DNA from: Citrus sinensis
Lineage: Eukaryota; Streptophyta; Magnoliopsida; Sapindales; Rutaceae
Direction: 5' to 3'
DNA length: 64,000 nucleotides
NCBI RefSeq assembly: GCF_022201045.2
Contig: NC_068561.1
Coordinates: 19,470,501 to 19,534,500, forward strand
The notes below the pieces were generated by a model. The model did not search any database and was not told the DNA's origin. It saw nothing but the letters and a program-made list of their open reading frames with translations. The position numbers and the translations under genes are program-made. Numbering within the stretch: position 1 is the first letter of the stretch; the number at the start of each line of letters is the position of its first letter. Of this stretch, positions 52,661 through 63,469 are shown piece by piece.

Positions 52661-52919
52661 ATAAAATATTAGGAAAATGAGATTCTCACCACAGTGAGAA
52701 CCACACTGAGCACAGAACGGTGCGTTTTGTGCTCAGTATAAATTCTAACTGTAGCGGAAATATCGCAACACAAACGCGCCATTCCAAACCCACGCGCGTT
52801 CTCCCTCACGCCAACAAATCTCACCACGCTTCCTCCTCACTGTAAGCGCCCCCCCTCCCCGGGGGCGGTCGGCTGCGTCACGCTCCCTCACGGCGCCTCA
52901 CTCTCTCGGCTCTCTTAGA

Positions 52920-53995
52920 AAATTGAATTGCGGCTTCCGCCGTGGGGTTCTCTCCTCAACTGCCGTTGTCTCGTCTCTGACAGCTGCCTTAATCAAATTC
53001 TGAAGGTAGTTTGCTTCAATTCATTACATTAATTTCAAATTTGGTTTGTGTGGGATTATGAGTTTGTGAAGATTTAGTTCTGTTTCATGGTAAACTATTT
53101 TTTGCTCAGTGTGTTGAGAATATCAGCACGGTTTAAAATTCTTTTTAGATTCTGTCGTAAAGTTTTCTTTGTATTGGGCAAGTCAGTTACTTTAGTTTTG
53201 TGTCTGAAAACAAAAACACTTAGCTTAGTGAGTTTTAAGAGATTTTGCTATTTTGTTCAACGAAGCTTAAAAAGGGGAAGCTTTTATGGCGTCTGTGAGC
53301 CGAGGCAATTTGGATCGGGTGCTTTTTCAGTTCATTTGTTTGTTTCTTATTTGGGTTCTTTATTGTTAGATGTTCTTTTGAGATTCTGGCATCTGGCATC
53401 TGGCTACTTGCTTTTGTGGAGTTTTTTTATTATTTGAATTCTGTGAATTCTTTGTTTTCTTTCCCAAATGATTCCACTCTATAAAATATATATTGTGCTT
53501 GGCTAGAATTTTCTTTTAGATAATTGCATCCTGTACATTGGCTTAACCTGTCAAGAATGAGAATGATGGAAGATGCCTATCTTGGAAAGAATATATTGAG
53601 TTACATAGTACCGGTTCCAAATGAATAAATTGGAACTTGCCTAAAACAGGCACCAATCCACCATGACACCAAGCCTTTTTAAAATTTTTTTTTTTTTAAG
53701 TTTAAAGAAACTTATGTTGCTTCTTTAGATCTGTTTTAGCTTATGATGAATTTTGCTAATGGTAAAATCCCTCTCCTTCAAAGTTGGGGGAGGGGAAGCA
53801 TCTATAGGCATATGTGTACATTATGGAGCTCGAACTACATGTCGCAGTAATACATTATTCTCTTTGCTTTGCAGGTTTTGATCAACATGAGTGATTGGGA
53901 TGTAGGTCTGTGCTTGAGAGGCCGGAGTGATGACCAGAATTCTGTCAACCAGACCAAAGACAATCAACTGATGAAGTGTTGTTGTTCTTTATATT
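52920..53995 (+). pseudogene. Captured 5' end of an unrecognised gene
   Basis: A CT-rich leader ends CTGAAG before GTAGTTTG (donor near 53007). An AT-rich intron-like stretch follows to the acceptor CTTTGCAG (53874), then ATG at 53888 with MSDWDVGLCLRGRSDD and about 20 more codons before frame and similarity fade (stop near 53997). This is the shape of a plant 5' UTR exon, leader intron and first coding exon. I do not recognise the protein. The long open frame at 53087-53437 lies in the intron-like part and is ignored. Confidence 0.45.
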
Positions 53996-54074
53996 GATTG
54001 TTGGAAATTATGTGTTATTTCCAGATTTTTAGAAAATTATGATTGCTGGAAATAATTATATATGTACAATCATT

Positions 54075-54165
54075 ATGTCCTCCAGCACAAGTGAATTTCC
54101 AAACCCACAACTGAAAGCTTGCGAAAAATTTGTAGAAAATTTGTACATCAAATCCACAAGCTAAG
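54075..54165 (+). pseudogene. Decayed start of a GRF-type zinc-finger gene (element A)
   Basis: MSSSTSEFPNPQLKACEKF from the ATG at 54075 matches MSSSMSGVPNPHIKTCEKC in the second element codon for codon. Then the zinc-binding cysteine is lost (Phe in place of Cys) and a stop follows after about 30 codons. The rest of the finger is missing. It is most informative as evidence that the two elements share a history. Confidence 0.7.
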
Positions 54166-55169
54166 TGTTGTATCAGAATATGAATGACAATAAAACAAAA
54201 ATCTGTGTTCTTCATTCTTAAAATACTAATACAATACAAGTACATTCTTATTCTGAGAAATAACTACCTATTAACTCCATATTCATTATCTTGTTGAAAG
54301 AGTAGCTGCTGAAAATGTCCATGTCGCTGAGCTTGTATGTGCTATTAAAAAAAAATTAAACATCTTGTTGTCATCCGAAAAAATAAAGAAGGCAAGATGA
54401 ACAAATAAAAAACTTATCACTACTTTCGGTGCAAGAATTTTATGTAGATATTGAATAAACATTATCCTCAATTATTTGTCACAATAATTTATATTCAATT
54501 CATGGTGTGTTGCAGCAAGCTTCCCTTGTTTAACTAAATGACAGCTGAATCTTTACAACTAATTATCTTTACAATCAAATTTGGAATTAATTAGCAAATT
54601 ACCGCTAGAAATCGATGAGTGAAGCTAAGAGAGTGAGGCTGCAAGTCGAATTTTTGAGACAGCCGAGAGAGTGAGGCGCTGTGAGAGATGCAATGGACGG
54701 GCGAGAGAGAGACGAAGCCGATGGTGATTGCTGGATTGGTAGGATTGAGGGAGAGAGCGAAAGAGCCAGAGCGTGCGTGCTTGTTCTGCCAGAGAGCGCG
54801 TATGTTTTTTCTCAATGCGCGTGTGTTGTAATTATCCATCTACAGTGACCATTTTATAGTTACCTTGAAACGCACCGTTCGGTGCTATATGTGGGGCTGA
54901 ATGTTGTGAGCATATCGGTGCTGAAAATATTATTCAGCATGACCTAATCACCTAAACGGTTATAAGGTATGAACCAAAGTGGTTGGTCCGTGGTGTCCAC
55001 GCGCATGTTAAAAGCGTGGCAACTTTTTGTCCAAAATCCCCAATCCGTACACGCGCATTTCGTGTTTCTCAGTGCGTGCGGGTGCGGCCCTCGGCTACTC
55101 GTACAAATACGAACAAAAAATAATTCTAACCGAAACCATAGAAAGAACAAGAGCAGAAGAGAAACGAGT

Positions 55170-55230
55170 CCTCTTCGTCTTCATCTTCATCTTCATCTTC
55201 ATCTTCATCTTCATCTTTATCTTCATCTTC
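55170..55230. repeat. Hexanucleotide (CTTCAT)n microsatellite in a leader
   Basis: About ten units of TCTTCA/TCTTTA lie roughly 80-140 bp upstream of the second WRC start codon, probably in its 5' UTR. The open frame that reads through it (FIFIFI) is not a gene. Confidence 0.85.
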
Positions 55231-55306
55231 TAGAGTTTTCACTTTTGATGGCTTGTTTTCTGTAAATCAAGCTTCGACAATCTGAACCGTTGATAAAAAA
55301 AAAAAA

Positions 55307-56296
55307 ATGAGGATCAGAAACACTCACGACATTCCTCCTTCTTCCTCTTCCCTTTCACCAACCGGACGCCACTTCGATGATCATACATTTGCTCGGACGT
55401 CGTCGGCATCGTCGGAATCGCCACGCGTGATGATAAGCAGAATCAACGGTCGCATTAACAACATCGATTCGACGAGTCGCAGCACTTTCAATCAGGTGCT
55501 CATGATCTGTCGAAACTTTGTTCATCATCATGATGATCACTCTTTAATTTGCATATAGTATTAAATGCAGCGAAACTTTAGCTGACACGGCGCCGTTTTC
55601 TTCTCGTTGTTGTCGTTGCAGGAGCAGGACAAAGAAATCCGCCACGAAGAAGAAGAAATGTACGTCACTCCAGCTGAACAAAGGTGATTAACCAAATAAT
55701 AATTCATTGATTCATTTGACAGTCTTGGTTCTAATTTTTCTCTTGTTTTTTAAAAAAAATATATGAAGCAGTGTCGGTTTTTTGTTTTACTTAGTTTGAT
55801 AGGGGGGTGGCGCGAGGAGGAGAAAGCCATGCCGTTGAAGAAAAGGAGATTTATAAGCTTTGAGGTTGATCAGGAGGGGAGCGATGATATTGATGCCGGG
55901 GATAAAATGGTAAAAGTGGAAGGGAAGGAGGAGGATACGAGCACGAGGTGTGGGAGGACAGATGGGAAGAGATGGAGGTGCAGAGGGAGGAGAGTTGAAG
56001 GTCACTCAATGTGTGAGCATCACTTGTTGATTCGACGTGTGAGATATCCCGGAGATAATTTGATGAAAAGAGAAATTGGTGAAGATAATGGTGAAGGTGA
56101 TGGCGATGACCTTGATAATAATAAGAAGAAGAAGAAGAAGAAGAAGAAGAGGGAAAGGACGAAAGCGGAGGAGGGTTGTTTTGGGAATAATGATGATAAT
56201 AATAATAATAACAACAGCAAGAAGAAGGTGAAGAAGGCTAGATCCATTACTAGTTTGCTTAGAGATACTGTTCCATTTATGCATCTGAATCTGTAA
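55307..56296 (+). CDS. WRC-domain protein, copy 2
   Basis: Three exons: 55307-55495, 55622-55683 and 55795-56296, joining in frame to 250 aa. The ATG at 55307 starts MRIRNTHDIPPSSSS. Exon 3 opens SLIGGWREEEKAMPLKKRR, matching GRWREGEKAFPLKKR of copy 1. The WRC motif C-x9-C-x10-C-x2-H is at residues 136-160 (CGRTDGKRWRC, CEHH). A basic Lys run and an Asn run, encoded by AAG and AAT triplet repeats, precede KARSITSLL at 231-239. There is no QLQ domain, so it is a WRC-only nuclear protein and the role is unknown. For exon 3 the acceptor TTAG at 55794 is chosen because CAG at 55771 leads to a stop and TAG at 55802 breaks the frame. It starts about 370 bp beyond element A. Confidence 0.85.
56119..56220. 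repeat. AAG and AAT triplet tracts in WRC copy 2
   Basis: AAG repeats near 56124-56152 and AAT repeats near 56190-56215 encode the Lys and Asn runs. They are likely sites of length variation. Confidence 0.8.
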
Positions 56297-56589
56297 TTGG
56301 TGCTAGTGATGAATAGTGATGGTGATGAAGGCGATGAAATCTAGTGAAAATGAAACTCTGCTTTAGCAATTAATTAATGTTGGAATTAGTGTATGGTAAT
56401 CTTTCTTGATGAATCGGATTGAAGTTCTTAATTTCATCTTGCTCCTTCCAAAATTTTTTGTGTTGGTGAGGTTGGTAAATATGTTTTTTTTTTTCAATTA
56501 GTTGATAAAAATTAAAAATTAAGACCAGTATATTCAAGCAGTGAATAATACAACAAGGAGATGCAAGAAAACCTTATTATGAAATATAT

Positions 56590-56824
56590 TGAGTAATAAG
56601 TATTAATGTGACGGGAGAAAATTTTATTATAAAACCTGTCATGTAGTAAGTACCGATACGACACGGGAAAATTCATTATCAAACCTATCTTACAGTAAGT
56701 ATGGATGCGACGCGGGAAAATTTTATTATAGAACATGTCTTGGATGCGACGCGGGAAAATTTTATTATAGAACATGTCTTGCAGTAAGTACAGACGCGAC
56801 GCGGGAAAATCTTATTATGAATCC
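56590..56824. repeat. Tandem repeat of about 41-55 bp, five copies
   Basis: Each unit carries GTAAGTA..GATGCGACGCGGGAAAA, then TTATTATAGAACATGTCTT or a variant. Copies begin at about 56590, 56646, 56695, 56742 and 56784. The third and fourth share an identical stretch of about 40 bp, so that duplication is recent; the outer ones are diverged. The open frame on the minus strand (FYNKIFPRRI twice) only translates the repeat. Confidence 0.85.
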
Positions 56825-56829
56825 TCCTA

Positions 56830-58590
56830 ATAAATTATGACACGTGGATTAATTTATTGTCTCTCTTATTTCAATCGCTTGATTTTAGTGTAGATGTGCA
56901 TGTAGTAAGACTTCATTAGGCAGCATGAATTTTGTGATGACATTTGAAATACTCAAAATTTCAAAATAACCGTTACAAATTACAGAATTAATAAAAGCTT
57001 CATTTATATATAGGAGATTTGCGAATTTCGCTTTAAACATCGCCTCTCTTTAAAAATGAATACCATGCATGGTATTTTTGCTTTAATTTGAACGTATAGA
57101 GAATAGAGAAAATGCAGCTGCAGATGATTAAGAAGAGAGTGTTTAGTGTTTAGTGCTGAGTGTAGACAGCCGGTCATCCCCATATATACTCGCTCCTTGT
57201 CGTCGTCACTCGTGATCAGGCATGATATTTTTAATTGAATTTTTGTTAAATACTATATATGTTGAAATATACTTAATTTCCATAATTTGATTTATTAGCT
57301 ATGTACGTACACGCAGGAAAAAGAAGAGTAAAAATGTGGGTGCATCAGAAAAAAAAAAAAAGGAGAGGGAGTATAAATGAGTACGACGAAATAGGGCAAC
57401 AAGGGGTGGCAGCCGCCCTTGAAACTCAGCCTGAGCCTGACGACAGAAAGTTTAACTTTATATAGAGGACTACTCCTCGAAGTCTACAAGAGAATCTTGC
57501 GAAGTTCCTCTGCTTCCTCCTGTTTTATTTATTTATTTATTTTATTACACTTAAGTTTATTTAGATATAAAAGGCACTTTTCAAGTGTTAATTAGTGAAT
57601 GTGGTAAATTAATACTCATTAAATTGATAATTTAAGGTAAATAAACTTGAGATCTATATGGCAAATTAATAATTTAATAAATTTATTAAATGATAAAATT
57701 TTAAAAAGATCTTATTTTTCTATAGAATCCAACTAATTTGAGACTATATATATATATATATATATATGAATGATATGTTTAAGATTTTCTTTGTTGTATT
57801 TGCATAATGCTTTACACATTTTATCAATCATTATTATTTTTTTATACCTTTTAAATACGAAGCCATTATCGTATCCTATGTGCTATGTTAAGAGAAATGA
57901 GAAAAATATCTACGTAATCTATTACCTCAAATCCTTATAAATTAATTTATTGATATATTAATATTTGCTAAATTAATAAAAATTTTATGGTCCCAAAGTT
58001 ATTAATTTATTGAGATTCTACTATATATATTATAATCTGTAGTTATTACATAAAAAATTATATATAATTAAATCATAACGGTTATATATACAATTGTAGA
58101 AAATTACAAAAAAAAAATCCGGCTGATGGCTAAATTCAAACTCAATAATAAGACCCTTTAGTAGGGGGTAATTTTGAAATACAAAAGCATAGAGTAGTCT
58201 TAGTTAATTTATTAAATATTAGAAAAATAAGTCATAAAAAATTAGACCGAGTGCTTTGGGGGAAAAAAAATCAATTAGTTTTACCAAAAACCTTAGCTGG
58301 GCCTGGGCTACGCACTGCTTACTAGACACGGTGCCTCAGTCTTAAATTCCCAAATCCAAAGCAATAATAAATCCCCGAATGACAAAAAAAAAAATATATA
58401 TATATATATATACACCCTATATTCAATATTGTGGGCCCCACTTTCTATTCATCCTCCCCACAACGAGCTCACATTTCGGATATGCTTCTGGAGGACCCAT
58501 TAGTCTAAATATCTCTCGCATAACCTCAGATATTTTTCTTCCATCGAGTAAAAGAAAAGAAAAGAAAAGAAAAGAAAAGAAAAGAAAAAG
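56830..58590. other. Intergenic region
   Basis: No gene seen. Contains TA tracts near 57745-57768 and 58394-58411, and an (AAAAG)n tract at about 58554-58590 directly in front of the thioredoxin-like start codon. Confidence 0.5.
58554..58590. repeat. (AAAAG)n pentanucleotide tract in the thioredoxin-like leader
   Basis: About seven AAAAG units end four bases before the ATG at 58594, so it is probably transcribed as 5' UTR. Confidence 0.85.
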
Positions 58591-58593
58591 AGA

Positions 58594-59712
<1,119 letters not shown>

Positions 59713-60070
59713 TAAAAAGAAAGAAAGAAAAAAATCCCTCTCATTCTCTCTTATCTTACACATTATTGTATATGTAAATTTTGATTTCCTACTCTTTCTT
59801 CTATAGGAAAAATATTTTTTCATTCGATGATCGTGTTAGGATTTTGTTTGGCAACTAAAAAATTTTCTCAGTTTTCTCTTGAATGCCCTCGCGGCAAATG
59901 AGGTTATTTGGATGTAAAATAAAATGGAACAATTTGATTTCATGCGAGCTTCATAAAATCTTGCCAAGCTGATCTAAAGTTTTGAATTGGCCTCGAGCGC
60001 ATTGGATTTTGTTTTTAACTTCTTGTGCATTTTGTCAACTATATACAAAGTGAACGCTATGGACAACGCA
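59713..60070. other. Short intergenic stretch
   Basis: The 3' flank of the thioredoxin-like gene and the upstream flank of the tRNA gene. Nothing else seen. Confidence 0.5.
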
Positions 60071-60152
60071 GTCGCTTTGGCCGAGTGGTTAAGGCGTGTG
60101 CCTGCTAAGTACATGGGGTTTCCCCGCGAGAGTTCGAATCTCTCAGGCGACG
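60071..60152 (+). tRNA. tRNA-Ser, anticodon GCU
   Basis: Acceptor GTCGCTT pairs with AGGCGAC. The D-arm region (GGCCGAGTGGTTAAGGC), the anticodon loop CTGCTAA, a long class II variable arm (GGGGTTTCCCC, typical of Ser/Leu) and the T-arm GAGAG-TTCGAAT-CTCTC are all present. Discriminator G is followed by genomic sequence, and CCA is not encoded. It reads AGC and AGU codons. There is no intron. The A box and B box (GTTCGAATC) are internal. Confidence 0.95.
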
Positions 60153-60156
60153 GAGC

Positions 60157-60161
60157 TTTTT
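60157..60161 (+). terminator. Pol III terminator of tRNA-Ser
   Basis: A run of five T, 5 nt after the mature 3' end. Confidence 0.75.
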
Positions 60162-60164
60162 GAA

Positions 60165-60760
60165 ATTCTGTTCGCTCCAAGGCGCGTGGAAATATTTTAT
60201 CAGATCTCAAAGTTGCATAATTTTTAGTATAGTTTTGTGAAATAGTAAGCTATTTGTACTTTCAAGAACTTTTGGACCCTCATTTTATTCATAACTCGTT
60301 AATATCACTTGGTATTATTATTATTTTTTTCTAAAAAAAAAGATTTTACTCTTCTTAGAAATACCGAAACAAACCTTAATTTGTTCATCTCTTCGTCATA
60401 ATTCTCAACACAATGACATTGATCGCTGTTTAGTTCCTCCAAATGAACGGACAATGATAAGAGGTAAAATAACATAAATGCTTGATAATAGTATGCCTCA
60501 AGCTGCTGTAGAAAAAGAAGCTACAAAATTCGTTAGTCTACCCCACTGAACTGATTACTAAGAACTAACTACTAGTAAATGTGATAACTTGGAACCTTGA
60601 GGTATTACAAGCATGATTTTTTTATGGTGGCAAAGTTAGAGGTAAAAGCTAATTCAACATATATTGCTTGGTCATAACATTATTAAATTTGATAATTTTG
60701 GGAAGCGAAGAAGCCCGTGTACAAAAATAGCTGACATACAAATATCAAAACCAAACTCCT
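60165..60760. other. Intergenic region before element B
   Basis: AT-rich, nothing recognised. Confidence 0.5.
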
Positions 60761-60809
60761 CATTCTAAAATGGAAAATGATGTTCTCACACATTCGCGCA
60801 CAAACGTTT

Positions 60810-60832
60810 GCACAAAACGGTGCGTTTTGTGC
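60810..60832. repeat. Subterminal palindrome, left end of element B
   Basis: GCACAAAACG, a 3-nt spacer GTG, then the exact inverse CGTTTTGTGC. The same 23 nt recur at 63394-63416 at the other end in the same orientation, so the spacer is not inverted with the rest of the terminal repeat. Confidence 0.9.
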
Positions 60833-61427
60833 ACCTTTAAAAGGCTCTTCGTACGTGCACAACAACACACACGCTCTTCCCAGCTCCTCCCACTCACGTA
60901 TGCCTCCTTTCACTGCAACAAAAACCCAGCAGCTTCCTCATTCTCTAGACACCATTCTCCCTCGCTCTCGGCTCTGTACTTCCTCATTCTCGCTGGATCT
61001 GTTTTGCCACACTCTCTCGGCTCCGATCACCCTCATTCTCGGTGGCTCCATTTCCCTCACTGTCTCGGTTCCGATCTGCCTCAATCTCTCCCTCAATCTC
61101 TCGATCTCAATTTCATCACTCTCTCTACCCCAACACAACCGAATTAACGGAGCTTGTTAAGGTTAGTGTTCAATTTATTGCTTTAATTTGTAATTAATTG
61201 AAAATTAATTATTTTGCCCCATTTTGGCCACTTGGATTTTGAATGGTTATTGTTGAGGGTATAGTGATTTTGGGTTGTATTGATATTAGCTTTGAATTTT
61301 GAACGAATTGATTTATTTTTCCTGTTTCGGTCATCTAGGAAAATCAAAACACATTGCATGTATTATATAAATGCATCAAGATTTGTAAAGAAAAAGAATT
61401 TAAATAAATTATCGTTGTTACTTTCAG

Positions 61428-61655
61428 ATCTGGTCGTATATACGTAGTTGACACACAAAAAAATCCAAGGGCTCCCTCTTTGCATAAAGTTGTTGAGCCT
61501 GCAGATATTGTACAGAAGACAAGATTATCTTATCCTCACACGGCTCATTGCCTTGCTTCTGGTGATATCCTGGTGTCATGCCTTGGAGATAAGGATGGAA
61601 ATGCTGAGGGAAATGGATTTCTTCTCCTTGACTCAGAATTCAATGTGAAAGGAAG
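61428..61655 (+). pseudogene. Captured exon of selenium-binding protein (methanethiol oxidase)
   Basis: A 228-nt open exon between TTTCAG and GTAAAA reads SGRIYVVDTQKNPRAPSLHK, then VVEPADIV, YPHTAHCLASGDILVSCLGD and NGFLLLDSEFNVKGR. That is one internal exon of the plant SBP1/SELENBP1 family, whose full proteins are near 490 aa. Both splice sites and the reading frame survive, but no other exon of the gene is present. It sits between the inverted repeats of element B, so it was carried there as a genomic fragment with flanking intron, not as a cDNA. Confidence 0.9.
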
Positions 61656-62060
61656 GTAAAACAATAGATTTGTGTAAACTTGAGCTACTATCTTACTTTT
61701 TTTCATGTTATTCACTATTCTAAATAATGTAAACTTGAGCTTAAAAAACAGACTCATGCAAGTGATGTTGCAAATTATTTAAACAATGTGAGGCGGTGAT
61801 ATTCTTTGTCATTAGTTCAGCAAATAAAAAATATTTAGATGTGATTGACAAACATTATTAGATAGATATTAAGTTTGCAGGAGATAGTTGGCAAAAACCT
61901 TGAGAGCAACATTGTTGTGGCTGTTTTTTTCTTTTGGAATTGATTAGTAGCTGGTGTGTCCTATATTGTTTCCCTGTCCAGTTGCTTAATGCTCACTAAC
62001 TATTACGACTTTTTTTTTCTCCTTGTCAGTTGCTTAAATTGGTTGGATATTTCTATCACA

Positions 62061-62377
62061 ATGTCCTCTAGCATGAGTGGAGTTCCAAATCCACATATAA
62101 AAACTTGTGAAAAGTGCTGCAATGATAAGATCTTACGAACTTCGTGCACAAGAGAGAATCCGAATCGTAAGTTTTGGAAGTGCAAAGGATGTGGCCATGT
62201 GGGACATTTGAATGGGACGACGATCGGAAGAACAATGAATATATTGTGTGTCGAGGGGTGGAAGATCGAAATATGAGCGAGATTAAAATTGATCTTTTAC
62301 TAGGAGAAGTGCGCAAGCTGGGGCATCAAATGAAATGCTTGTCTCTTAAATTTGAATTGCTTGAAAGAGAACTTTAA
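62061..62377 (+). pseudogene. GRF-type zinc-finger gene with frameshift (element B)
   Basis: From the ATG at 62061: MSSSMSGVPNPHIKTCEKCC, then RTSCTRENPNRKFWKC. This matches the GRF zinc finger (C-x-C, T-S-x-T-x2-N-P-x-R-x-F-W-x-C). Near 62190 the frame shifts by one base into CGTFEWDDD, which completes the finger, and then into a Leu-rich helical tail ending ELLEREL with a stop at 62375-62377. GRF fingers bind nucleic acid and are common on plant transposable elements. The element A copy is far more decayed. Confidence 0.8.
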
Positions 62378-62599
62378 CAAAGTTAGCAACCAAGTATTAT
62401 TGTAAAATATTTCCCACAAATAATTATATGTATTTTAATATGTATTGTATTTAAATTGTATATTCAACTAATGTATTAACTTCTCTTATTTGCAATGAAA
62501 ATTACGTTTATGGTTGAAATATTATTTTCTGTTATTTGCAACTTTGCATTAAATCGTGTATAACTTTCGGTTCACAAGGAAAAGTTTGAACTAATTTCA

Positions 62600-62716
62600 A
62601 TGGACAGGGAATCTCACGCTGTAGTGATACCATTCCCAGCACAAGGTATTGCTGAACATGGAATCAAGGTCACATTTGTTAGCACCGAGCATATGCACGC
62701 CAAAATCACGGCTTGA
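62600..62716 (+). pseudogene. Captured UDP-glycosyltransferase N-terminus, internally deleted
   Basis: ATG at 62600 gives MDRESHAVVIPFPAQG, then IAEHGIKVTFVSTEHMHAKI and a stop at 62714. Family 1 UGTs (UGT83A type) begin this way, but with roughly 11 more residues (usually starting HVAPLM) between the QG and the IAEHG helix. Their loss in frame, and the absence of the remaining 400 or so residues including the PSPG box, make this a dead fragment. Confidence 0.8.
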
Positions 62717-62719
62717 ATG

Positions 62720-62870
62720 CCACATAAAGCTGAACATTTCCCCCTTCCCAATCAAACCATTTTCAGCTGCAAAACCATGTTGCAAATGCACTGCATAATC
62801 ACTCACAAATCTCTAAGCCACATGAACAAACCAAGCAACTGGGTTTTCTCATATTTCATTCAACTTGACA
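62720..62870 (-). pseudogene. Possible further captured fragment, unrecognised
   Basis: The minus strand reads FVSDYAVHLQHGFAAENGLI, then GKGEMFSFMWHSSRDFGVHM, open over about 60 codons with a protein-like composition and stops further upstream. I do not recognise a family. It may be a piece of a host gene in antisense inside element B, or chance. Confidence 0.3.
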
Positions 62871-63393
62871 AAAATCGCATAGACTAACAATACTCTTGCA
62901 ATGGTTGCAAAAACAACCTACTTTTGTAATAAATTGAACAACACAATCAACATTAATCGGCAATTGCAATATATGCTTTGTAAAATTTAAATAGAATAAA
63001 TTAAGAACTAAACAGAACCTAATTGCTCAAAGGCTCACAAAATTCGGCAAATATGACAAAAATTAAGGTTCCACGTTAGGCTAGGTGAAGTACTCGAAAT
63101 GGGGCAAAATACTACTGCTGAGATCGAGAGATTGAGGGAGAGAGTGAGGGAGAATGAAGCCACCAAGAATGAGAGAAAACCGAGCTAAGAGAGTGAGGAC
63201 AATCGAGAACGAAATTGTTGCTGTGTCGAGAATGAAGCTGCTGGGTTTTTGTTGCAATGAAAAGAGCCTTTTAGAATGAAAACCGAGTTGTTGCACAGTT
63301 GCATTGAAAACCGAGCTGTTGCAGTGAAGGGGGAACAAAACGTAACGTGCGTGTGTTTTGTTTGGTGCACGTACGAGGAGCCTTTTAAAGGTT

Positions 63394-63416
63394 GCACAAA
63401 ACGGTGCGTTTTGTGC
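63394..63416. repeat. Subterminal palindrome, right end of element B
   Basis: Identical to 60810-60832 and in the same plus-strand orientation (arms GCACAAAACG and CGTTTTGTGC around GTG). Confidence 0.9.
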
Positions 63417-63469
63417 AAATCTTTGTGCGCATATTTGTGAGAATATCACTACTGTTCTAAAATGTATTC

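Follow-up and report, generated by a model that had tools for sequence, protein, structure and literature searches.

The 64,000-nucleotide stretch of Citrus sinensis DNA analysed here (the window, C6:19470501-19534500) carries two Mutator-like elements (MULEs), E1 and E2, each with the remains of a gene for a small GRF-type zinc-finger protein, hereafter the finger gene. We conclude that full-length FAR1/MULE elements possess the finger gene as a resident second gene, tail to tail with the transposase gene; a probability of roughly 0.85 applies to this claim and to the anatomy. E1 and E2 themselves are Pack-MULE-type elements related to the FAR1/Jittery-type MULEs of Citrus, and they represent separate insertions. 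All results come from one genome, searched over 300 Mb in 11 contigs, and are sequence-based. An earlier, sequence-only reading of the window had taken the finger gene for the own cargo of a non-autonomous family; we abandon that part of it because the same gene stands beside a transposase in larger relatives and is linked to it genome-wide.

Relatives of E1 and E2 carry a transposase and a finger gene

Among the 20 loci fetched by a search with the E2 end, four (L022, L028, L029 and L030) hold large elements in which a MULE transposase is accompanied by the whole or part of the finger gene. Both genes are degraded in L022; L028 has the last part of the finger gene alone and no flanking repeat; L030 combines an intact finger frame with a transposase split into several frames. 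Further two-gene cases are L040 (350-6434), L035, L036 (249-7030) and L038 (911-7058). A perfect 9-bp target-site duplication (TSD) flanks L022, L029, L030, L035, L036, L038 and L040, and the two-gene elements with a TSD measure 5.8-6.9 kb. Both genes are present as long open frames in L029, L035, L036, L037, L038, L039 and L040, with 667-742 codons between stops for the transposase and 121-136 amino acids (aa) for the finger protein; convincing ends were not found for L037 and L039. When compared to E1 and E2, the ends are the same in L029, L030 and L040 and related in L035 (CitMule_1, see below), L036 and L038. The sequence-only reading had proposed to look for a full-length relative in which a MULE transposase is joined by an intact GRF gene; L029 and L040 are such relatives.

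The finger gene and the transposase face each other in all two-gene relatives compared. A Pfam scan of five transposases placed FAR1 and MULE above cut-off in all five and SWIM in four; among the relatives with the same ends, L040 scores above the PF10551 cut-off, L029 has a long transposase frame, and the broken frame of L030 is likewise above cut-off. The GGAAAAT end is found on the finger side in six of seven elements (L022, L029, L030, L035, L036 and L040) and on the transposase side in L038, whose ends are swapped relative to its genes when compared to the related L036; a fixed polarity of element ends was dropped since L038 breaks the rule. A search of five elements for a splice-donor motif found it in E2, at one end, and in L022, at the other end, only, and the idea of an intron stems from an acceptor-like CAG shortly 5' of the finger ATG, recognised by sight in 8 of 10 copies.

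Several further features were seen in such elements. A tandem repeat coding for MHAKITAAKLNISPFPTKP... lies between the two genes in L030 (2815-3216) and L040 (4035-4604) and apparently grew from the UDP-glucosyltransferase (UGT) fragment described below, and long CA/TG simple repeats stand just 5' of the finger gene in L038 and L039. Nine finger loci score like CitMule_1. At four loci (C1:21234734, C5:26652596, C5:34598124 and C5:35279739) the score of the finger match equals that of CitMule_1, the transposase frame has 398 codons and the gene spacing is shorter; these probably form a young deletion subfamily. At C5:30064006-30076983 a finger gene and a transposase match within a 1555-codon open frame are convergent and 11 kb apart, probably as one element with a nested insertion.

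Finger gene and transposase are linked genome-wide

With the L030 finger protein as query we obtained 101 matches, merged to 91 loci, and the addition of 16 more gave a full set of 107; the transposase set comprised 150 scored PF10551 matches of 899 candidates. In the first set, 47 of the 91 finger loci had a scored PF10551 match within 6 kb, all 47 in convergent orientation, and the linked finger proteins include ones just 26-33% identical to the query. The full set gave 49 linked loci of 107 within 6 kb, as well as within 4 kb, and 49/49 are convergent; permutation (2000 runs) yielded a mean of 0.65 and a maximum of 5. Extending the distance to 50 kb raised the number of linked finger loci to 55, with 53 convergent, because chance neighbours enter.

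The finger protein has a conserved layout and is under purifying selection

The finger protein displays a probable GRF-type zinc ribbon, then a charged, helical-looking stretch and finally a hydrophobic segment at the C terminus. All eight finger proteins scanned match PF06839 (GRF) at E values up to 0.1, three of them above the gathering cut-off, and C16, C19, C41, C44, F47 and W49 are invariant. The hydrophobic tail is present in 8/8 (KD17 2.16-2.72), which suggests membrane anchoring. The ratio of nonsynonymous to synonymous substitution (dN/dS) was estimated by the Nei-Gojobori method for 28 finger pairs and 21 transposase pairs: in 17 of the former, between families and unsaturated, it is 0.15-0.33, and in all 21 of the latter 0.16-0.28. 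The finger gene is under purifying selection between families.

Other transposases face a gene that encodes an RNase H1 N-terminal domain

No finger match was found within 6 kb of 25 of the 62 best transposase matches. At C5:154777-157953 a transposase is accompanied by a convergent frame that encodes an RNase H1 N-terminal domain (HBD), a domain that binds RNA:DNA hybrids, and a hydrophobic tail; this copy holds one stop. Six other HBD copies are open frames of 124-144 aa with a tail in 6/6 (KD17 2.84-3.27), and the three of them that were scanned all match PF01693, at 59.1, 64.8 and 54.5 bits (cut-off 21). A 99-aa part of the HBD protein used as query gave 48 matches, merged to 41 loci, of which 15 have a scored transposase no more than 6 kb away, 15/15 being convergent, while permutation (1000 runs) gave a mean of 0.26 and a maximum of 3. 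The HBD-linked and finger-linked transposases have none in common, and with finger and HBD taken together, 48 of the 62 best transposase matches have a convergent partner. Two finger-less transposases were also inspected: the one at C1:1269005 has at the expected spot a 349-aa open frame that looks retrotransposon gag-like by eye, and for the one at C3:39803686 no candidate open reading frame was found in the 2 kb examined.

E1 and E2 are separate insertions without a transposase

The elements in the window and their parts are as follows.

52672..54923, + strand: E1, non-autonomous MULE, 2252 bp; degenerate terminal inverted repeats (TIRs) at 52679-52742 and 54853-54916; copies L031 and L032 have TSDs of their own
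52663..52671, no strand: left TSD of E1, AAAATATTA, 9 bp, perfect; right copy at 54924-54932
53132..53977, + strand: acquired block of E1, three overlapping pieces matching loci L045, L044 and L043
54075..54164, + strand: stub of the finger gene in E1, MSSSTSEFPNPQLKACEK..., a reading frame of 29 codons plus stop, without the finger
60772..63454, + strand: E2, non-autonomous MULE, 2683 bp; derivative of the L029 type without the transposase block
60763..60771, no strand: left TSD of E2, TTCTAAAAT, 9 bp, perfect; right copy at 63455-63463
60812..60831, + strand: subterminal near-palindrome ACAAAACGGTGCGTTTTGTG, 20 bases, about 40 bases inside the E2 ends; second copy at 63396-63415
61331..61848, + strand: captured fragment of a selenium-binding-protein gene in E2, intron-exon-intron, coding 61429-61656, PF05694
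62061..62476, + strand: E2 copy of the GRF-finger gene, with a frameshift within the finger; 61913-62616 is 94.5% identical to L029
62553..62736, + strand: fragment of a UGT gene in E2 with an internal deletion; C3 locus L042

E1 begins with GGAAAATGAGATTCTCAC at 52672 and closes with CAGCACCGATATGCTCAC (inverted) at 54923, and E2 begins with GGAAAATGATGTTCTCAC at 60772 and closes with CAGTAGTGATATTCTCAC at 63454. The inverted ends are degenerate, with 82% identity over 65 nt in E2 and 73% over 64 nt in E1. Both elements have the TIRs and a TSD within the 8-11 bp by which MULEs are recognised, and the 9-bp duplications are each perfect and differ in sequence. Two random 9-mers of the window agree by chance at a rate of 3.5e-5 (70/2,000,000); among elements with placed ends the perfect 9-bp repeat occurs in 23/29, or in 21/27 once L036 and L038, whose ends were located solely via their flanking repeat, are dropped, and mismatched flanks of different elements gave it in 1 of 812 pairs. 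A tblastn search (E 1e-3) detected no transposase match in E1 or E2. Thus the sequence-only reading was right about the ends, the distinct perfect duplications with the separate insertions that they indicate, and the lack of a transposase. Its proposed search with both ends was also fruitful: the termini recur genome-wide, the E1 end in at least 42 matches (62 candidates, 40 of them scored) and the E2 end in at least 44 (72 candidates, again 40 of them scored). The near copies of E1 are L031 (99.4%) and L032 (96.1%), those of E2 are L015 (95.2%) and L011 (94.5%), and E1 and E2 are classed by sequence as members of different subfamilies, not as close kin.

The near-palindrome ACAAAACGGTGCGTTTTGTG has 41 exact copies in the genome vs 0 for a backward control, and a similar motif was seen at both ends in most of the 17 elements displayed; it is a candidate transposase-binding site. 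The motif CACGCGC, which we take to be the FHY3/FAR1 site, has 8 occurrences in the element ends (8.5 kb in total), 0 in the interiors (37.8 kb) and 3 in the flanking DNA (40.2 kb); an enrichment of that site was dropped, the motif being missing at the ends of most E2-type elements.

E2 derives from a two-gene type of element and both elements hold acquired DNA

Both ends of E2 align with those of L029 and the finger region is 94.5% identical over 705 columns, while element positions ~1990-4956 of L029, transposase included, are without counterpart in E2. The E2 finger region is 76% identical to CitMule_1, and a Pfam scan of its 71-aa finger frame matched no family. In E1, the likeness of the stub to the finger protein extends over the first ~18 residues, as judged by eye, and 54060-54129 is 81% identical to CitMule_1 (L035). 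The MSSS-x-S gene that had been read into both elements is therefore present as a frame in each, but as a 29-codon stub that lacks the finger in E1 and with a frameshift in the finger in E2.

The selenium-binding-protein fragment of E2 is identical to the C9 locus L041 in 506/518 columns, introns included, and scores 97.6 bits against PF05694 (cut-off 34). It was captured as genomic DNA because intron sequence is included, and it sits upstream of the finger-gene ATG. Its exon region has nine matches in the genome, namely E2, L041 and seven more, all seven in fetched element copies. The UGT fragment and L042 are 79.7% identical in an alignment of 217 columns that includes a single gap; the open reading frame of L042 matches solved UGTs at a best E of 2e-19, with PF00201 under its cut-off. 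The claim that host exons had been picked up is borne out by these two fragments. As in Pack-MULEs, E2 has gene fragments within its TIRs and TSD, no transposase match and matching loci elsewhere. The acquired block of E1 is made up of 53132-53443 (85% to L045), 53405-53622 (98% to L044) and 53442-53977 (83% to L043).

In the surroundings of the two elements we also observed, between E1 and E2, a WRC-domain gene (window 55763-56296; PF08879, 43.5 bits), and the frame directly 5' of it has its ATG at 55307, some 380 bp past the end of E1. A thioredoxin-like gene lies in pieces at window 58594-59713, with a WCRKC motif, a weak PF00085 match under cut-off and exons placed by eye, and a tRNA-Ser (GCT) gene at window 60071-60152 precedes the E2 insertion by ~600 bp.

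A possible helper role and alternative explanations

In full-length elements the two genes run inward from both ends and meet tail to tail. E2 would have started as an L029-type element that lost ~3 kb, transposase included, while the half with the finger gene was retained and host fragments were added, one of which lies 5' of the finger ATG; both E1 and E2 would be mobilised in trans. The second gene, whether finger or HBD, may act as a transposition helper in a layout like that of mudrA/mudrB. Tentatively, and at somewhat less than even odds, we propose that the finger protein acts as a helper by binding exposed single strands or element ends while tethered to a membrane, e.g. the nuclear envelope; a nucleic-acid-binding, tail-anchored helper fits with the HBD and its hydrophobic tail taking the same place in other MULEs. 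More doubtful is a general two-part system of transposase and small convergent helper in the FAR1-type MULEs of Citrus. Such a helper would join an exchangeable nucleic-acid-binding head (GRF in most, HBD in others) to a C-terminal membrane anchor and keep transposition intermediates or element transcripts at a membrane, and derivatives such as E2 would retain the helper half. On this view, many of the free-standing GRF-finger genes of plants would serve transposons as helpers or descend from such helpers by domestication.

Several observations weigh against a resident second gene. For 58 of the 107 finger loci, no scored transposase lies within 6 kb (150 of 899 PF10551 candidates scored); they include the known derivatives E2, L011 and L015, and some may be independent host genes. 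Conversely, 14 of the 62 best transposase matches have neither a finger nor an HBD partner within 6 kb, and 26 of the 41 HBD loci are unlinked. PF06839 stays under the gathering cut-off in five of the eight finger proteins, and a profile search of solved structures (PDB) gave no significant match (best E 0.64). Of the 28 finger pairs, 7 are saturated and four are close copies, whose dN/dS of 0.16-0.73 comes from small numbers of changes; the HBD copies, which are too alike, range from 0.39 to 1.49 over 15 pairs with no clear constraint. Finally, the synonymous distance of L037 to L036, L038 and L039 is 0.83-1.02 for the finger gene and 1.34-1.41 for the transposase, so the histories of the two genes may at times have diverged, and exchange between families is possible.

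Were the finger gene instead the own cargo of a non-autonomous family that picks up host exons, this would accord with the absence of transposase matches from E1, E2, L011 and L015 and with the host fragments in E2, L011 and L015. We find this account very hard to sustain, as larger elements of several families have the gene intact beside a transposase, the linkage is genome-wide and in a single orientation, the finger regions of E2 and of L029, which has a transposase, share 94.5% identity, and two-gene elements with the same ends exist in L029 and L040. It is also improbable that a MULE ancestor captured the gene once, long ago, and that it was then carried unused. Gene acquisition is common in MULEs and their extra open reading frames are often presumed host-derived (PMC6446971, in its accessible sections), but the finger dN/dS of 0.15-0.33 between families is close to that of the transposase, the frames, tail and convergent layout have been kept across families, and in other MULEs the corresponding position is occupied by a different small convergent gene, whose product has a nucleic-acid-binding domain.

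A serious rival concerns function: the second gene could counter host silencing, like VANC of VANDAL MULEs, and not aid the transposition reaction. Extra open reading frames are described in several MULEs, one of them anti-silencing (PMC6446971, same sections), and a small nucleic-acid-binding protein or a head that binds RNA:DNA hybrids would suit such a role; a membrane-like tail is not plainly expected of an anti-silencing protein, and we hold this possibility to be on the unlikely side.

FAR1/FHY3-type MULEs gave plants light-signalling transcription factors. If the finger gene is indeed a resident second gene that acts as a helper, transposition in the FAR1-type MULE clade would need or gain from an overlooked partner protein. 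Small GRF-finger genes in plants whose function is not known would have a testable explanation, and the subject touches on a family of elements that has already been tied to a somatic mutation in clementine.

Comparison with known systems

Among the papers listed in searches of the open-access literature, with Repbase and subscription papers outside the search, we found no description of MULEs whose second gene encodes a GRF finger or an HBD; a wheat QTL paper was the one match to mention both a GRF zinc finger and a transposase. The word "GRF" occurs 0 times in the accessible text of PMC4334395, PMC2528002, PMC6446971 and PMC8599713. As far as these sources extend, the accounts of Jittery and CitMule describe a transposase transcript only (PMC9569675, PMC4334395).

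The closest known element is CitMule_1 of clementine, with 6926 bp, chromosome 3, position 6785326 and TSD TTGTTGAAA (Terol et al. 2015, PMC4334395 Table 1). L035, on C3 near 6.79 Mb, is 6927 bp long with TSD TTGTTGAAA, and is identified as CitMule_1 by TSD, length and place. According to the accessible part of the same article, CitMule has been linked to a deletion found in a clementine sport, its activation is reported, and one 5-exon transcript is described, with "GRF" absent from the main text (PMC4334395). The Citrus elements studied here share with CitMule the FAR1/MULE/SWIM transposase, degenerate TIRs, 9-bp TSDs and AT-rich targets (PMC4334395). E1 and E2 are relatives of CitMule_1, however, and not copies: neither is near-identical to it, the E1 end matching at 79% over 71 bp and the E2 ends sharing just a 20-bp motif. 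Terol et al. term CitMule clearly related to Jittery (PMC4334395), a maize element of 3.9 kb with one cDNA and, in the account consulted, no mudrB homologue (PMC9569675), whereas the Citrus two-gene elements with a TSD reach 5.8-6.9 kb.

An extra gene is what our elements have in common with MuDR and VANDAL; the mudrA and mudrB genes are convergent, the transposases of MuDR and VANDAL belong to a clade that differs from that of the Citrus elements, and the resemblance to mudrA/mudrB is one of layout. For MuDR and for the vanB and vanC genes of VANDAL, the accessible sections of PMC6446971 give the function of the extra genes as unknown or anti-silencing. The probable GRF-type zinc ribbon resembles the Zf-GRF of APE2, which binds single-stranded DNA (PMC6122073, in part); the Citrus finger protein differs in being free-standing, at 121-136 aa, and in its hydrophobic tail, and its DNA binding would be by analogy. 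E2 resembles Pack-MULEs in its TIRs, TSD, genomic gene fragments and matching loci elsewhere, and differs from them in having kept the half of the parental element in which the finger gene lies.

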